Made by a program: the position numbers and the translations under genes
The notes under the pieces: model-generated
The model's input: only the letters and a program-made list of their open reading frames with translations
What the model was told of the DNA's origin: nothing
The model's database searches: none
Origin: Deltaproteobacteria bacterium
GTDB taxonomy: Bacteria; Desulfobacterota; Syntrophia; Syntrophales; UBA2210
Assembly (NCBI GenBank): GCA_016933965.1
Contig: JAFGTS010000022.1
Location: forward strand, 62,001 to 126,000
Length of the DNA stretch: 64,000 bases
Reading direction: 5' to 3'
Shown here: in pieces, positions 2,596 to 10,186 of the stretch
Layout of the letters: each line of letters opens with the position of its first letter
How positions within the stretch are numbered: position 1 is the first letter of the stretch

Positions 2596-3531
2596 TCACC
2601 TGCTGTGACGGATAAAATCTTCAAAGGCCTCCTTCGTCGTGTATCGGAACCGGTAGCCCAGTTCTTTCTTTACTTTCTCGTTACTGGCTATCCAGGAATT
2701 GATGACGAGGTTCAAACCGGGGCTGGGAAATTTCGTGATGAACGACGCTCTCAGGAACCACATCAGGTTATTGAGGGGGTACATGATGGGAAGGGGCAGT
2801 TTCAAACACCAGTTGCCCAGGCCGCGGACCATCTCATCGAAGGTCATGGTTCCGTCGGCGGCGAGATTATAGACGCCGCCCCTTTTTTCAATGAGCAGCC
2901 GGCACATGATCTCCACCAGGTCATCTTCATGAATGAACTGGAACGGGACCGTCTTCCGCGGCAGAATGACTATCTTCCGCTTCAAGTGCTGCGACAGGGG
3001 ATTATCGAAACCGGCACCGACAACGAAGCAGGGCCGAATGATGGTAAGACAGATCTCCGGGTGGGTCTCTTGAAATTCGGAACAAATAAATTCGAGCTCC
3101 TTCTTGTTCTTCGAATAGGTAAAATCATCGTTTCCCCGCAGCGGGCTGTCTTCGGTCAGGAGGGGCGGGTTATCGGGATGAAAGCCGTAGGCCGTGGTCG
3201 ATGAACAGTGCAGTACCTGGGGAATGGCCGCCCGCGCGGAAGCGTTCAGAGCGTTTTTCGTTCCGTTGATGTTGATGTCTTCCATGTAGGCCTTGTCATG
3301 CAGGGGCGGCAGGATAAAGGCGGCATGGATGAGCCGGTCGACATTCTTCCCCTCGAGCAGCGGGTAGATGTCGTCCCGTACGTCATGCCTTATGAATGTC
3401 AGTTTTTTCGACGTGAAGGAAGGCGGCTTCAGGTCGATCCCCCAGACCGCAGAGATCTCATCCTTCGTCTCGAACAGCGAGACCAGCTTGCTGCCGAAAT
3501 ATCCCGATACGCCTGTAATAAATACATTCAT
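2596..3531 (-). CDS. NAD-dependent epimerase/dehydratase (extended SDR)
   Basis: This is a 311-residue extended SDR. The N-terminal nucleotide-binding motif is GVSGYFGSKL and the active-site Tyr/Lys are in YSKNK. The first residues MNVFITGVSG are typical of the family, so I chose the ATG at 3531 (GGAGGA about 10 bases upstream) over more distant starts. The family includes sugar epimerases and 3-beta-hydroxysteroid dehydrogenase-like enzymes. Membership of an acyl-CoA operon favours a hydroxy-lipid or hydroxyacyl dehydrogenase over a sugar enzyme, which is inference. A clear relative sits at 25,430-26,386, also beside an SCP2-like gene and a ThDP enzyme. Confidence 0.85.
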   Translation of the reverse strand: MNVFITGVSGYFGSKLVSLFETKDEISAVWGIDLKPPSFTSKKLTFIRHDVRDDIYPLLEGKNVDRLIHAAFILPPLHDKAYMEDININGTKNALNASARAAIPQVLHCSSTTAYGFHPDNPPLLTEDSPLRGNDDFTYSKNKKELEFICSEFQETHPEICLTIIRPCFVVGAGFDNPLSQHLKRKIVILPRKTVPFQFIHEDDLVEIMCRLLIEKRGGVYNLAADGTMTFDEMVRGLGNWCLKLPLPIMYPLNNLMWFLRASFITKFPSPGLNLVINSWIASNEKVKKELGYRFRYTTKEAFEDFIRHSR

Positions 3532-3580
3532 TGCAACCGGGTCCTCCATTCCTGCAAACCAACCACCGAGCGACAGGTCA

Positions 3581-4570
3581 TCACAGGACCGCATCTTTCC
3601 TGACGAAGGGCCGCCACGTTTCGATCAGCATTGATGCCAGATCGGCGGTATGGTCGATCAAGCCGTTGCAAAAAGAAGAGCTGTTCATGTGGACGGCAAA
3701 ATCATGCCAGTCTTCAAACGTTCGCGCCGTGATCCGACTACATTCGAGCGACCCCGCAGCAGAAGCAAAGTTCTTCGCGAGGGTCGATCCCAGTCCGAAA
3801 GGCTCAGGCATGCCACGGGGGCGTTCCAGCAAAAGGTTCACATGGCCTATGAGAAAGGCGGAAAGGATCTGCAAATAGGACATATGGCGGACATCAATTC
3901 CGAAGAGCATGTTCAACGCCATGACCCCTCCCGCCAGCGCACCACAAAGGCCGCCGGTCAGTCCAATGCCACCGTCAAAAACGAAGGATAACCGCTCTAC
4001 GCGGGAGTCCCCCACGCCGGTCCGTTCACGGACCTTCTCAAGGACCGACCGGGCGCATCGGTATGACGGCATCTCCCGCGGAGACGTATCGTTCTCACTG
4101 AGCAGGATGGACGTTCCCGCACGGACGGGATCGAGATAATTCACTGCCTGTGTGATATGTCTAAAGCAGCGTGCCATGCGGTCCCCCGGCAGCAGGTATC
4201 GGATCTGACCGCCTACCCGGTTGAAATCAACTTCAGTTCTGACACGACAGATCGTGGTACCGAAATGAACGGTGAACCAGTCGATATACTTTTCAATGAG
4301 CCCGATCACATCGATCTCGGCGGCAAGACCACGTTCTTTCAGGGCATGGTCATGGAGCAGAGCGATCGCCAGGGCGCCACTGGTCACGACACCACAGGTA
4401 GAACCGCTGGCAACGGTCCCTCCCTCAAATCCGGTCGCCGCGCGAAGCAGCATGTCGTCCCTGCACTCGATCCGGTCCTGGAACACTTCCAGGGTGGCAA
4501 GGCCTCAGTTCAGATTCTTGAGCAGAAACAGAGCGCCTTTGAGCCCGAGGGAATTGTCGCTCTTTGCCAC
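3581..4570 (-). CDS. C-GCAxxG-C-C family selenoprotein (in-frame UGA read as Sec22)
   Basis: The frame opens at GTG 4570, five bases after a GGGGAGG ribosome site. It meets TGA at 4505-4507 (codon 22) and then stays open to 3581, giving 329 residues if the UGA is read through. The local order is LLKNLN-U-GLATLEVF, then LLRAATGFEGG and STCGVVTSG. Family members have Cys where U22 lies, followed by the GCAxxG-like segment and two further Cys (TTICRV, MARCF). The C-terminal half carries a second related module (GGIGLTGGLCGALAGG), so the protein looks like a tandem fusion. A hairpin with SECIS geometry lies just after the UGA. The family is a putative redox protein with metal or disulfide chemistry. 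It lies between thiolase and epimerase genes in the catabolic operon, suggesting a role in electron transfer for that pathway. A conventional call would start at GTG 4486 and lose the Sec region. Confidence 0.82.
4477..4507 (-). promoter_or_regulatory. Candidate bacterial SECIS element with its UGA codon
   Basis: On the minus strand, TGA (4507-4505) is followed by 18 bases and then a perfect 7-bp stem CCTGGAA/TTCCAGG (4493-4487 with 4483-4477) closed by the loop GTG. Published bacterial SECIS rules require an apical loop 16-37 bases after UGA, a loop of 3-14 bases, and a G among its first two bases. All three are met. The hairpin is inside the coding region, as expected for SelB-dependent recoding in bacteria. 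Confidence 0.75.
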
Positions 4571-4586
4571 GTATTCCTCCCCACCG

Positions 4587-4637: not shown

Positions 4638-5876
4638 TCAGACCTTTTCCAGGATATGGATGGTCATCGACGCTTCTTCAACGCCGATATTCCCTCCGCC
4701 GTTTTCCGTCAGCCCGATCCGGGCGCTTTCCACCTGCCGCGCTCCCGCCTCTCCTCGAAGCTGATGGACCACTTCATAGATCTGGGCAAGCCCGGAGGCA
4801 CCGATGGGATGTCCCCTGCATTCGAGTCCCCCGCTGGTGTTGATCGGCAGGGAACCGCCGAGTTTCGTAGCGCCCGTTTCCGCAAACACACCGCCCTCGC
4901 CGACGGGGCAGAATCCCATCACTTCGGCCTGATGCAGTTCACCGTAAGCCGTGGCGTCATGCAACTCGGCAAGGTCTATATCCTCCGGGCCCAGGCCGGC
5001 CATGTCGTATGCCTGCCGGGACAGACGCAGCCCGATATCGGGACCGTCGAGCTCCCGGTCCGAGCCGGAACCGAGGACGGACGCCCGGACCTTCACGGGA
5101 CGGGCGTCCTTCAATTTCTTCAGGTATGAGGCGGAGCACAGGATGGCCGCCGCAGCTCCGTCACCGACGGGCGCGCACATCGCCCTGGTCAAGGGCCACG
5201 CGACGGACCGGTCGGCAAGCACTTCCTCAACGGTCATGTCCTGCTGATACTGTGCCAGCGGATTCAGCGATCCATGCCAGTGATTCTTCGCGCAGATGAC
5301 GGCGAGCTGCCGCTGCGTCGAGCCGAACCGGTCCATGTGCCACCGGCATCCCATGGCATAGGCATCCATGAAGATGCTCCTCCCTTCACCGGGAGGACTC
5401 TGACCTTCGGGAATTTTCACGTTCACCTGTTTGCTGACCTCTTCGAACATTTTAATATGTTCGTCGAAGTGTTCCACATCCATGCAGCTCGCGTACGCCC
5501 CCAGCGAAAGCGCCTTGTTCTCATGGGTGATCTTTTCCGACCCGATGGCCAGGACCACGTCATGCATGCCCGCCTTGATGGCCGTATACCCCAGAAGGAA
5601 CGCCGTCGATGCCCCGGCGCAGGCGTTTTCAACGTTCACGATGGGGATCGTGTCGATCCCCATATGCCACAGCATTACTTCACCCCTGATCGAATGCTGA
5701 TTCGAGAACATGCCCCAGAACGTGTTCGATACGTACGCCGCCTGAATGTCCTTTTTACCGAGCCCCGCGTCCTTCAGCACAAGGTCCACCGCCTGAGTCG
5801 CCATCCCCGTGACCGTCGCGTCCGGATACTTGTTGAATCGAATCATTCCGATCCCGATTACATACACATCGTCCAT
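4638..5876 (-). CDS. Thiolase family protein (SCP-x-like acyl-CoA acyltransferase)
   Basis: This is a 412-residue thiolase-fold protein. The nucleophile region is NACAGASTAF and the C-terminal catalytic segment is GGLECRGHPIGASG, which keeps the HP motif of the family. Thiolases cleave 3-ketoacyl-CoA with CoA or condense acyl-CoAs. The divergent sequence resembles the lipid-transfer (SCP-x) thiolase group rather than FadA/AtoB, fitting the SCP2-like protein at the head of the operon. The ATG at 5876 has AGGGGG nine bases upstream; an in-frame ATG at 5882 is too close to it. It lies 30 bases after the acyl-CoA dehydrogenase gene. Confidence 0.88.
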   Translation of the reverse strand: MDDVYVIGIGMIRFNKYPDATVTGMATQAVDLVLKDAGLGKKDIQAAYVSNTFWGMFSNQHSIRGEVMLWHMGIDTIPIVNVENACAGASTAFLLGYTAIKAGMHDVVLAIGSEKITHENKALSLGAYASCMDVEHFDEHIKMFEEVSKQVNVKIPEGQSPPGEGRSIFMDAYAMGCRWHMDRFGSTQRQLAVICAKNHWHGSLNPLAQYQQDMTVEEVLADRSVAWPLTRAMCAPVGDGAAAAILCSASYLKKLKDARPVKVRASVLGSGSDRELDGPDIGLRLSRQAYDMAGLGPEDIDLAELHDATAYGELHQAEVMGFCPVGEGGVFAETGATKLGGSLPINTSGGLECRGHPIGASGLAQIYEVVHQLRGEAGARQVESARIGLTENGGGNIGVEEASMTIHILEKV

Positions 5877-5906
5877 AATCATTTTCCCCCTGTTTGGGCT
5901 GTCCCG

Positions 5907-7175: not shown

Positions 7176-8789
7176 TTACTGATAGTCTTCATATTTGTAA
7201 ATTGTTCCCGCGCCCTTTTCAAAATCCTCCCGCAGCTTCCGATCCAGCGCCTTTTCGGAAACAGTCTTCGGTATATCGTCAACCACCTGAAGGTAGGAGG
7301 GAATAAAATTCGCTTCCAGGTCCTGCCGGCATTTCTGGAATATCGAGGCAGGGTCTATTGTTCTTCCCTCAAAGGGCGAAACAGCCGCCACCAGGTCGCT
7401 CTCACCGGGTGCCCCCGACGCGGCGGGTATTCCATAGACGCAGACCTCGCTCACGTCGGCATGCTCGCCGATGATCTTCTCCACATGATCCGGCTGGATG
7501 AAGTCCCCCGCCCTGCGCAGTTCGGTTCCCTTCCGAAAATCGAAAAAGTACCAGCCGTCTTCGTCACGATGGACGATGTCACCCGTTCTGAGCCATCCGC
7601 CCTTCGTTTTGTCCTTTGACGCGTCTGGCAGGCCAAGGTAGTCCACCCTGGTCTCGCCTTTCATCATCCGGCAGACGAGCTCTCCCTTTTCACCCGGCGG
7701 AAGGGGGCTGTCGTTGTCATCGACGACCCTGAACTCCATGACGCCGGGGATCGGTTTTCCAAAAGAACCGATGGGGCCTTTTCCGATCGGCTTGTAGGCG
7801 AACCCGCCCTCGATGGCACCGTACCACTCAAGGATCTGCACATTGAATCTCTTCTCGAAGGCTTCCCACATGGATACGGGCGTTCCCGCGCTGATGACCA
7901 CCTTTACGGGATTGTCACCGTCATCGGGTTTTTCCGGTTCATTGAAAATGCCGGCCATCATCCCGCCGAGCAGTGAGAACGACGTACACCCGTATTTTCT
8001 GCAGATATCCCAGATCCTGCTCTTCGTGAACCGGGGGCTGAACACGGCCTTGATACCCGCGTACAGCGCCGGGAAAAGGGTAACGGCCTGCGCGTTTCCG
8101 TGGGTGAGGGAAAGGCCGGTATAGAGGATCTCGTCCGGCCGATAGCGCCAGACAAGCCGGTTCAGGATCGTAAAGAGTCCTGTCCGGTTGTTCCTGATCT
8201 TCACACCCTTTGGATCACCGGTGGTCCCCGATGTGTAGATGATCTGCATGGGTTGCCGGACATCCATGATCTGCTGTTCCACGCGATCCCAGGAATCCTT
8301 CTCCAGGGTTTCGTTGAGCACCGGGTACCGGTCGGGAACGTCGATGCCGTGCTCGGGGCGTTTTACCACTGAAATGAACCGGAGCCCCGGAACATCGGCG
8401 ATGACCTCTTCCAGTTGCTCAAGGCACTGGTCCGACACGAAAAGGGCCTTCACGCCCGAGTTGTTGAGGAGAAATTTCAGGCGGTCACCCCTCGAGCGCG
8501 GGTCGATGGGCACCATGACCGCCCCGATGGTCGTCCCCGCCAGAAGGGCATGGACGAATTCGGGATGGTTCCGCATGAACACTCCGAAGGCATCGCCGGA
8601 CGTGATACCCTGATCGAGCAGCAGGCGGGCCACCTTGTTCGAATTCTCATAAAGGCTCTTGTAGGTCAGAACATCCTCACCGAACTCACCACGTTCGAAA
8701 ACAAGGATCTCCCTGTCCGGCTTCGCGTCGGCCTGTATCTCAACCATGTGTGAAGCGATCACCTGGTTCAGGTGTGCTTTTGAAGACAT
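7176..8789 (-). CDS. AMP-binding acyl-CoA ligase (CaiC-like)
   Basis: This is a 537-residue adenylate-forming enzyme that should activate a carboxylate with ATP and CoA. Motif A3 is IIYTSGTTGDPKGVK, A5 contains EWYGAIEGG, and A7 contains GWLRTGDIVHRD. The C-terminal A10 Lys motif is unusual: PKTVSEKALDRKLR instead of the common PKTxxGK, though the Lys is kept. Start ATG 8789 follows AGGAGGTGGAAC. The gene at 13,037-14,644 is an obvious paralogue with the same A10 variation. As the only ligase in the operon, it probably performs the first step on the pathway's free acid. Confidence 0.9.
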   Translation of the reverse strand: MSSKAHLNQVIASHMVEIQADAKPDREILVFERGEFGEDVLTYKSLYENSNKVARLLLDQGITSGDAFGVFMRNHPEFVHALLAGTTIGAVMVPIDPRSRGDRLKFLLNNSGVKALFVSDQCLEQLEEVIADVPGLRFISVVKRPEHGIDVPDRYPVLNETLEKDSWDRVEQQIMDVRQPMQIIYTSGTTGDPKGVKIRNNRTGLFTILNRLVWRYRPDEILYTGLSLTHGNAQAVTLFPALYAGIKAVFSPRFTKSRIWDICRKYGCTSFSLLGGMMAGIFNEPEKPDDGDNPVKVVISAGTPVSMWEAFEKRFNVQILEWYGAIEGGFAYKPIGKGPIGSFGKPIPGVMEFRVVDDNDSPLPPGEKGELVCRMMKGETRVDYLGLPDASKDKTKGGWLRTGDIVHRDEDGWYFFDFRKGTELRRAGDFIQPDHVEKIIGEHADVSEVCVYGIPAASGAPGESDLVAAVSPFEGRTIDPASIFQKCRQDLEANFIPSYLQVVDDIPKTVSEKALDRKLREDFEKGAGTIYKYEDYQ

Positions 8790-8813: not shown

Positions 8814-9473
8814 TCAGAAATCTTCGCTTTCCACCGCACCGATGAACCCTCTGTTGAAGGTGGGGAACTCCTTGTTGAAGATCTCGTCCCAGTAATCCTT
8901 CGTCCAGAACTTATGACGGTCGAAGAAGGGGTCTTCTTTCGCGGCGCTCACGCACACGCTCACGACGATGTCCACTCCTTCGAGCACTTCCATCGCCCTC
9001 GCACCGAATCCCAGGGTGCTGAAGACCCGGCAGTGGAGTCCCAGCCGCCAGGCCATAGCGGCGGCCGCATCGGCGGCGATATTCAGGTTGATGTTCTTGA
9101 ACTGGCAACTCGGTCCGTTGGCCGTCAGCGACTCGACCTCCTCTGCCTTGTTCATTTCAGCGCAGGTGCGGTAACCGCATGCACCGCAGTTATAATTGAA
9201 ATGCGATTTTCTCGTATCCCCCAGAACCAGCAGGGCACAGGGCTCCTTGATCAATTCAACGACGAACCTGCCGTCCCGTGCGGCCAGCGGCGCCATATCG
9301 CCGAGGGAAAAACAGAATTCCGCGATCCGTTCCATCTCTTCAGTCCCGACGGCGATGATCTTGACCGTGTCTCTCCCGCCGAAGCGGAAACTGTTGTGGG
9401 CCGCGAGCGCCATCAGCTCAACGGCCCTCTCAAGGCCGTTCTGCACCAAGGTTTCCATTTCTATTATAGCCAT
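8814..9473 (-). CDS. DUF2148 (ferredoxin-domain) protein A
   Basis: This 219-residue soluble protein has a four-Cys cluster: C96, C99, C104 (NCGACGYRTCAEM) and C123 (PSCQF). This is the pattern of the DUF2148 ferredoxin-domain family, expected to hold an Fe-S centre. Its function is not established. ATG 9473 follows GGAGGAGAGGTC. A paralogue lies 17 bases upstream in the same operon, so the two may form a heterodimeric electron carrier or regulator for the acyl-CoA pathway; that is inference. Confidence 0.8.
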   Translation of the reverse strand: MAIIEMETLVQNGLERAVELMALAAHNSFRFGGRDTVKIIAVGTEEMERIAEFCFSLGDMAPLAARDGRFVVELIKEPCALLVLGDTRKSHFNYNCGACGYRTCAEMNKAEEVESLTANGPSCQFKNINLNIAADAAAAMAWRLGLHCRVFSTLGFGARAMEVLEGVDIVVSVCVSAAKEDPFFDRHKFWTKDYWDEIFNKEFPTFNRGFIGAVESEDF

Positions 9474-9490: not shown

Positions 9491-10168
9491 TCAGCTGTAG
9501 ATTGATCGGAACTGAGGCCAGAGCCGCTGAATGATACGGTCGTTCATGGTCCTCTCGTTGATCTCATCGTACCGGCGCGGGATATCCCTGAAGGGACTCT
9601 TTTCCGTGACGGACAGTCCGACGGCAAGTGCGAAACCCGTCGCCCGCGGAAGGATCCCCATCCGCATCGCCGCCAATCCCGCCGACCAGTACACGCCGTA
9701 ATCGATACCCAGGTTCCGTGCCATTGTGACAATACCGTCAATGGCATAGGCGATGTTGTTCGCTCTGAACGCGCAGAGCGGCCCCGTAAAGGCGACCCCC
9801 GGTTCGCTGGGCAGCTTTTCTTCCTCCTTCAGGTACTCGCAGGTCAACTTGCCGCACATGTTGCAGTTGATGTCGGCGGGGTCCGTGAGGCTCCTCAGGG
9901 AGGTGACGACCATGACCACATCGGCGTCACGCAGGACGGCCGCGTCCTTCTTGAAGAACTCCCAGGCCTTGTTCTCACCGGCCAGTTCTTCGACCATCTG
10001 GCAGAGGTCTTCGATGTCGCACTCATCATCGATGATGTGGGTCGTACATTCACCCACACCGCCAACACGGGGTGACGTCGTGGCCGACGCGAGAAGGAGC
10101 AGTGCCGCCAGCTTCACGGCGTCTTTCCGGTCTTCCTCGAATTGCTGCAAACTTCTCTCGATACTCAT
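9491..10168 (-). CDS. DUF2148 (ferredoxin-domain) protein B
   Basis: This 225-residue protein has the same layout as the next gene: C103, C106, C111 (NCNMCGKLTCEY) and C133 (PLCAF), counted from the longer start at 10,171. Two adjacent ATGs exist (10,171 and 10,168). The inner one has a better distance (6 bases) from AGGAGG, so it was chosen. The rest of the protein has diverged from its partner, especially the N-terminus, which suggests an old duplication with specialised subunits. It follows the SCP2-like gene by 18 bases. Confidence 0.78.
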   Translation of the reverse strand: MSIERSLQQFEEDRKDAVKLAALLLLASATTSPRVGGVGECTTHIIDDECDIEDLCQMVEELAGENKAWEFFKKDAAVLRDADVVMVVTSLRSLTDPADINCNMCGKLTCEYLKEEEKLPSEPGVAFTGPLCAFRANNIAYAIDGIVTMARNLGIDYGVYWSAGLAAMRMGILPRATGFALAVGLSVTEKSPFRDIPRRYDEINERTMNDRIIQRLWPQFRSIYS

Positions 10169-10186
10169 CATGATCCTCCTTCAGTC

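Follow-up and report, generated by a model that had tools for sequence, protein, structure and literature searches.

A predicted selenocysteine in the first module of a tandem PF09719 protein from a Syntrophales genome, with UGA or Cys at the same codon in its homologues

PF09719 (C_GCAxxG_C_C) is listed, in a single mention, as a selenoprotein family in PMC9312934. Sec-containing PF09719 proteins are also given as known in PMC13188914, as "form 1" (a 2007 study of Olavius) and "form 2" (2008); a search of the main text of the 2008 paper gave no description of its PF09719 member with the keywords used. In Desulfococcus biacutus, the PF09719 protein DebiaDRAFT_04510 is prominent in acetone-grown cells, and its gene clusters with those of an acetyl-CoA acetyltransferase and a Zn-dependent alcohol dehydrogenase (PMC4103992). 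The gene analyzed here lies in a stretch of 64,000 nucleotides (hereafter the window) and encodes a protein with two such modules. An initial annotation called it an unrecognised selenoprotein and stated that Sec-containing members of the family were already recorded in databases. The second statement is correct, as the sources above and the NCBIfam name "C-GCAxxG-C-C family (seleno)protein" attest. The first is overstated, as listings of Sec in PF09719 go back to 2007-2008, and holds only in that the tandem form has no NCBIfam model of its own: the three models that match are broad or single-module ones and are shared by all 23 members.

On the minus strand of the window, GGGGAGGAATAC stands 5' of a GTG at 4570. 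The frame opened by this codon meets a TGA at codon 22 (4507-4505), is then open to residue 329, and ends with a TGA at 3583-3581 (Table 1). The protein matches PF09719 in two stretches (111.7 bits for a cut-off of 27, E = 2.7e-32) and TIGR01909 with 56.8 bits (cut-off 47.4), which places it in both by their curated cut-offs. Each module has four conserved Cys positions, one of them inside a GxCGA/STCG motif. Without recoding, the start would be the GTG at 4486, and the product would have 301 residues, 28 of the full protein being missing. We put the probability that UGA-22 of this gene is decoded as selenocysteine at roughly 0.94, on the basis of sequence comparisons.

Table 1. Features of the predicted selenoprotein locus and its neighbours (window coordinates)
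Feature	Position	Strand	Basis
Predicted selenoprotein gene: tandem PF09719 protein, 329 residues, GTG start, UGA (Sec) at codon 22, stop TGA	3581..4570	-	frame, profile and alignment
In-frame UGA, predicted Sec22; aligned homologues with Cys n=5, with UGA n=18	4505..4507	-	
Ribosome-binding-site-like GGGGAGGAAT ahead of GTG 4570	4573..4582	-	direct reading of sequence
First PF09719 module, residues 21-145: U22, C59, C108, C135	4136..4510	-	
Second PF09719 module, 4/4 positions Cys: C172, C209, C277, C301	3668..4060	-	
Shortened ORF from conventional ORF calling, GTG start, 301 aa	3581..4486	-	
bSECIS-like hairpin CCTGGAA-GTG-TTCCAGG, loop 4486-4484	4477..4493	-	
Upstream neighbour, thiolase-like protein, ordinary TGA stop	4638..5882	-	
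Downstream neighbour, NAD-dependent epimerase/SDR, start probably closer to 3531	2596..3594	-	
Neighbouring DUF2148 "ferredoxin domain" proteins (n=2), located upstream within the gene run	8814-9473 and 9491-10171	-	

Homologues were gathered by a search of the order and by an alignment-based scan of genome contigs, the latter giving 22 loci; a first scan of the contigs with a single protein as query had given no matches, and a search of viral contigs and plasmids gave no relatives of the tandem protein. Twenty-three distinct homologues have the tandem architecture. They are about 39-53% identical to the window protein and come from Smithella, Syntrophaceae, Desulfobacterales, Desulfococcaceae, and related MAGs. 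At codon 22, 18 of the 23 have TGA, five have a Cys codon, TGC or TGT (L035, L039, L041, L053, and L024), and none has a codon for any other residue. The alignment of 23 rows (the window protein and 22 homologues, L054 being left out) shows that the residues ahead of codon 22 are conserved, with N21 and position 22 invariant and L16 nearly so. The in-frame UGA is aligned to Cys and has conserved flanks on both sides. U22, C59, C108, C135, C172, and C209 are invariant among these 23 sequences, and C277 and C301 are absent only in L052, whose sequence ends early. In a tree built with the Sec region removed, the Smithella with Cys adjoin the Syntrophaceae with UGA, and at least three Sec/Cys switches are required. 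This exchange makes residue 22 a likely catalytic position.

A hairpin lies just 3' of the UGA. Its 7-bp stem (CCTGGAA/TTCCAGG) is perfect, and its loop, GTG, begins 18 nt past the UGA and provides the G in the apical loop that is characteristic of a bSECIS-like element. Taken alone, the hairpin of the window is unexceptional: its z-scores against shuffles range from -0.45 to -1.14, and when the peptide is recoded with synonymous codons, 240 of 4000 versions have an equally good stem, because LEVFQD favours a hairpin. It is the comparison of sequences that lifts the putative element above chance, through the UGA/Cys codon pattern, the covariation, and the absence of the hairpin from Cys forms. 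In the 19 UGA sequences, 92.5% of the stem cells are paired, versus 84.9% in shuffles (0/500 shuffles as high), and pairing falls to 26-58% when the partner strand is slid by 1-3 columns. Compensatory change has altered both partners in three stem pairs; CCTGGA/TCCAGG, for instance, is replaced by CCTGCG/CGCAGG in L050 and L051. A good hairpin is found in 18 of the 19 UGA forms (window included); in 16 of these its position is unchanged, and in L048 and L049 it is displaced. The five Cys forms all lack one (Fisher p = 1.4e-4, with no correction for relatedness). The only UGA form lacking a good one is L047. In L047, L048, and L049 (U codons at 8019, 8037, and 149), the hairpin is about 8 nt further downstream or weak, and these loci are possibly a natural case of SECIS drift inside one subfamily.

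If UGA-22 were a true stop, the real gene would be the 301-residue ORF starting at GTG 4486, and the frame upstream would be open by chance. An in-frame GTG is indeed available at 4486, and UGA is the commonest stop of the window, ending 34 of its 61 gene-like ORFs. Yet, one would then expect neither the conservation, across 23 sequences, of residues upstream of 4486 nor the five homologues that continue straight through with a Cys codon. Furthermore, the shorter protein would miss the first of its four conserved Cys, and its putative start codon coincides with the loop of the hairpin itself. We therefore regard a true stop at this codon as very improbable. When the 61 gene-like ORFs were scanned for an open, start-containing frame upstream of the TGA together with a strong SECIS-like hairpin, only one passed this filter, the Sec candidate at 3581-4570.

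The window comes from a draft assembly in 55 contigs (G000; 2.85 Mb, 96.7% complete), so that UGA-22 might reflect a sequencing or assembly error, or a decaying gene. However, 18 other loci have UGA at the same codon, one of them (L034) on a 3.4 Mb chromosome record, and the frame is otherwise undamaged and conserved. The recurrence of the same UGA in independent genomes argues against a sequencing error, and error or decay thus has a negligible probability.

Decoding of UGA-22 as selenocysteine requires a dedicated machinery, and this genome has SelA (606.8 bits) and SelB (365.4 bits), both above cut-off, SelD (L064, G000:C2:14091-15020, minus strand; 377.6 bits), and a tRNA-Sec with anticodon UCA. 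The latter occupies the end of contig C32 (L001, 1-86, minus strand), the contig edge cutting its 3' end, and it scores 56.9 bits with the Rfam model for a gathering score of 47; ARAGORN misses it because its 3' end is removed in this way. All four components are thus found, the tRNA being incomplete at the 3' end. This SelD is likewise a candidate selenoprotein, its frame having a UGA within the segment GAGUACK. Among eight relatives tested, carriers of Cys forms included, SelB was found in all and SelA in seven; SelA was not found in G034, a UGA-form relative whose genome is 87% complete. Since SelA and SelB are present in Cys-form relatives, the loss of Sec decoding does not explain the Cys forms. 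That UGA-22 is instead read by general suppression or in a reassigned code (e.g., as Trp) has hardly any likelihood, given that most genes in the window, including the thiolase just upstream, end normally with UGA, that the aligned residue is always Cys and never Trp, and that the genome has the Sec system.

In conclusion, the codon comparison, the hairpin, and the machinery strongly favour the predicted selenoprotein of 329 residues put forward in the initial annotation. The ribosome site and frame, the UGA at the first conserved Cys of the tandem protein, the stem and its distance from the UGA, and the loss of 28 residues in default annotation were all found as described there. The three points on which that annotation could have failed were also favourable: the Sec genes are in the genome, the residues ahead of codon 22 are conserved, and the TGA is shared by independent genomes. 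The tandem protein is a well-supported addition, as far as sequences can tell, to a family already known to hold selenoproteins.

In the proposed mechanism, SelB with the Sec-tRNA (anticodon UCA) would bind the hairpin just 3' of UGA-22, and a SelB-dependent step would insert selenocysteine at this codon. Of the four conserved Cys positions in module 1, Sec22 would occupy the first, whereas module 2 is all-Cys. Sec22 would act as a redox-active selenol, perhaps partnered by an invariant cysteine of module 1 such as C59, and module 2 (C172, C209, C277, and C301) may be a Cys-based partner or scaffold. The conservation of the Cys and the genomic context suggest that the tandem protein is probably a Sec/Cys redox protein. 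The AlphaFold2 model is all-helical and confident (pLDDT 87.4, pTM 0.88). Searches of solved structures by sequence gave no relative of the tandem protein, and searches of the PDB with Foldseek and VIA-align 2 gave no convincing fold match (best Z 2.7); a missing match in the PDB is no proof of a new fold.

The gene is part of a same-strand run that comprises two DUF2148 proteins, an acyl-CoA ligase, an acyl-CoA dehydrogenase, and the thiolase-like protein ahead of the Sec gene, followed by an NAD-dependent epimerase, an SDR, a thiamine-diphosphate enzyme, and a Zn-type alcohol dehydrogenase-like protein (named from likeness, not from an HMM). The catabolic operon of the initial annotation is thus observed at the window locus, but when the operon was tested across the homologous loci only two were found to share it: L037 has much of it in common and L045 its downstream part, and the remaining loci have other neighbours. 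In L037 (6700-9930), the thiolase is 92% identical to that of the window, versus 53% for the adjoining Sec protein, which therefore diverges much faster than its neighbour. Because only L037 and L045 keep the operon, this setting is a weak cue to function. A specific role in this lineage, as a redox accessory to an operon that oxidizes acyl-CoA/keto compounds, can be suggested tentatively, with the odds somewhat against it. A broader proposal is that tandem PF09719 proteins are a separate, unmodelled selenoprotein subfamily of unsolved fold, in which a Sec module and an all-Cys module act together as a redox relay within one molecule and thereby serve the anaerobic breakdown of acyl-CoA compounds or ketones by syntrophs and sulfate reducers. 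As a whole, this proposal seems unlikely.

A family of little-known chemistry gains in this way a clearly supported tandem selenoprotein, whose function can be tested at residue 22. There are also indications of a systematic annotation error, by which PF09719 genes of this order with UGA at the first Cys would lose a key residue by truncation.

The comparison with described systems shows different degrees of resemblance. The D. biacutus gene DebiaDRAFT_04510 shares with the locus the PF09719 domain and the two kinds of neighbouring enzyme named above, as judged from the published description, and the remaining genes of the cluster differ from those at the locus. By analogy, its link with acetone may be taken as a lead, and only as a lead, to the function of the tandem protein. 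The NF045501 HUGP/GUXX-star fusion selenoprotein is also a fusion, HMM-related to one module of the locus, but the window protein matches its model with a single module and far below the curated cut-off (46.5 vs 325 bits). Similarly, the NF045669 DVU_1555 family C-GCAxxG-C-C protein is related to one module, with a score under its cut-off (54.2 vs 103 bits). PF09719/TIGR01909 proteins have in common with the locus the domain, the Cys pattern, and the existence of Sec-containing members; those found here are mostly single modules in open frames of about 130-230 aa, whereas the locus has two modules and Sec in the first only. Among the single-module genes of the same order, 15 (L095-L109) were chosen for a PF09719 match starting just past the first Cys position, and reading these upstream revealed a TGA at the first Cys in 15/15, so that Sec at this position would recur in PF09719 of this order. 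Ordinary ORF calling would place the starts of these genes 3' of the Sec codon. They form two groups, HU-SQAVLAVGQEKL and LU/RU-AESVLLSV, each with downstream hairpins. Both groups differ from the tandem gene in having one module and in belonging to other sequence subfamilies, but they share with it the UGA at the first Cys and a hairpin at a similar distance.
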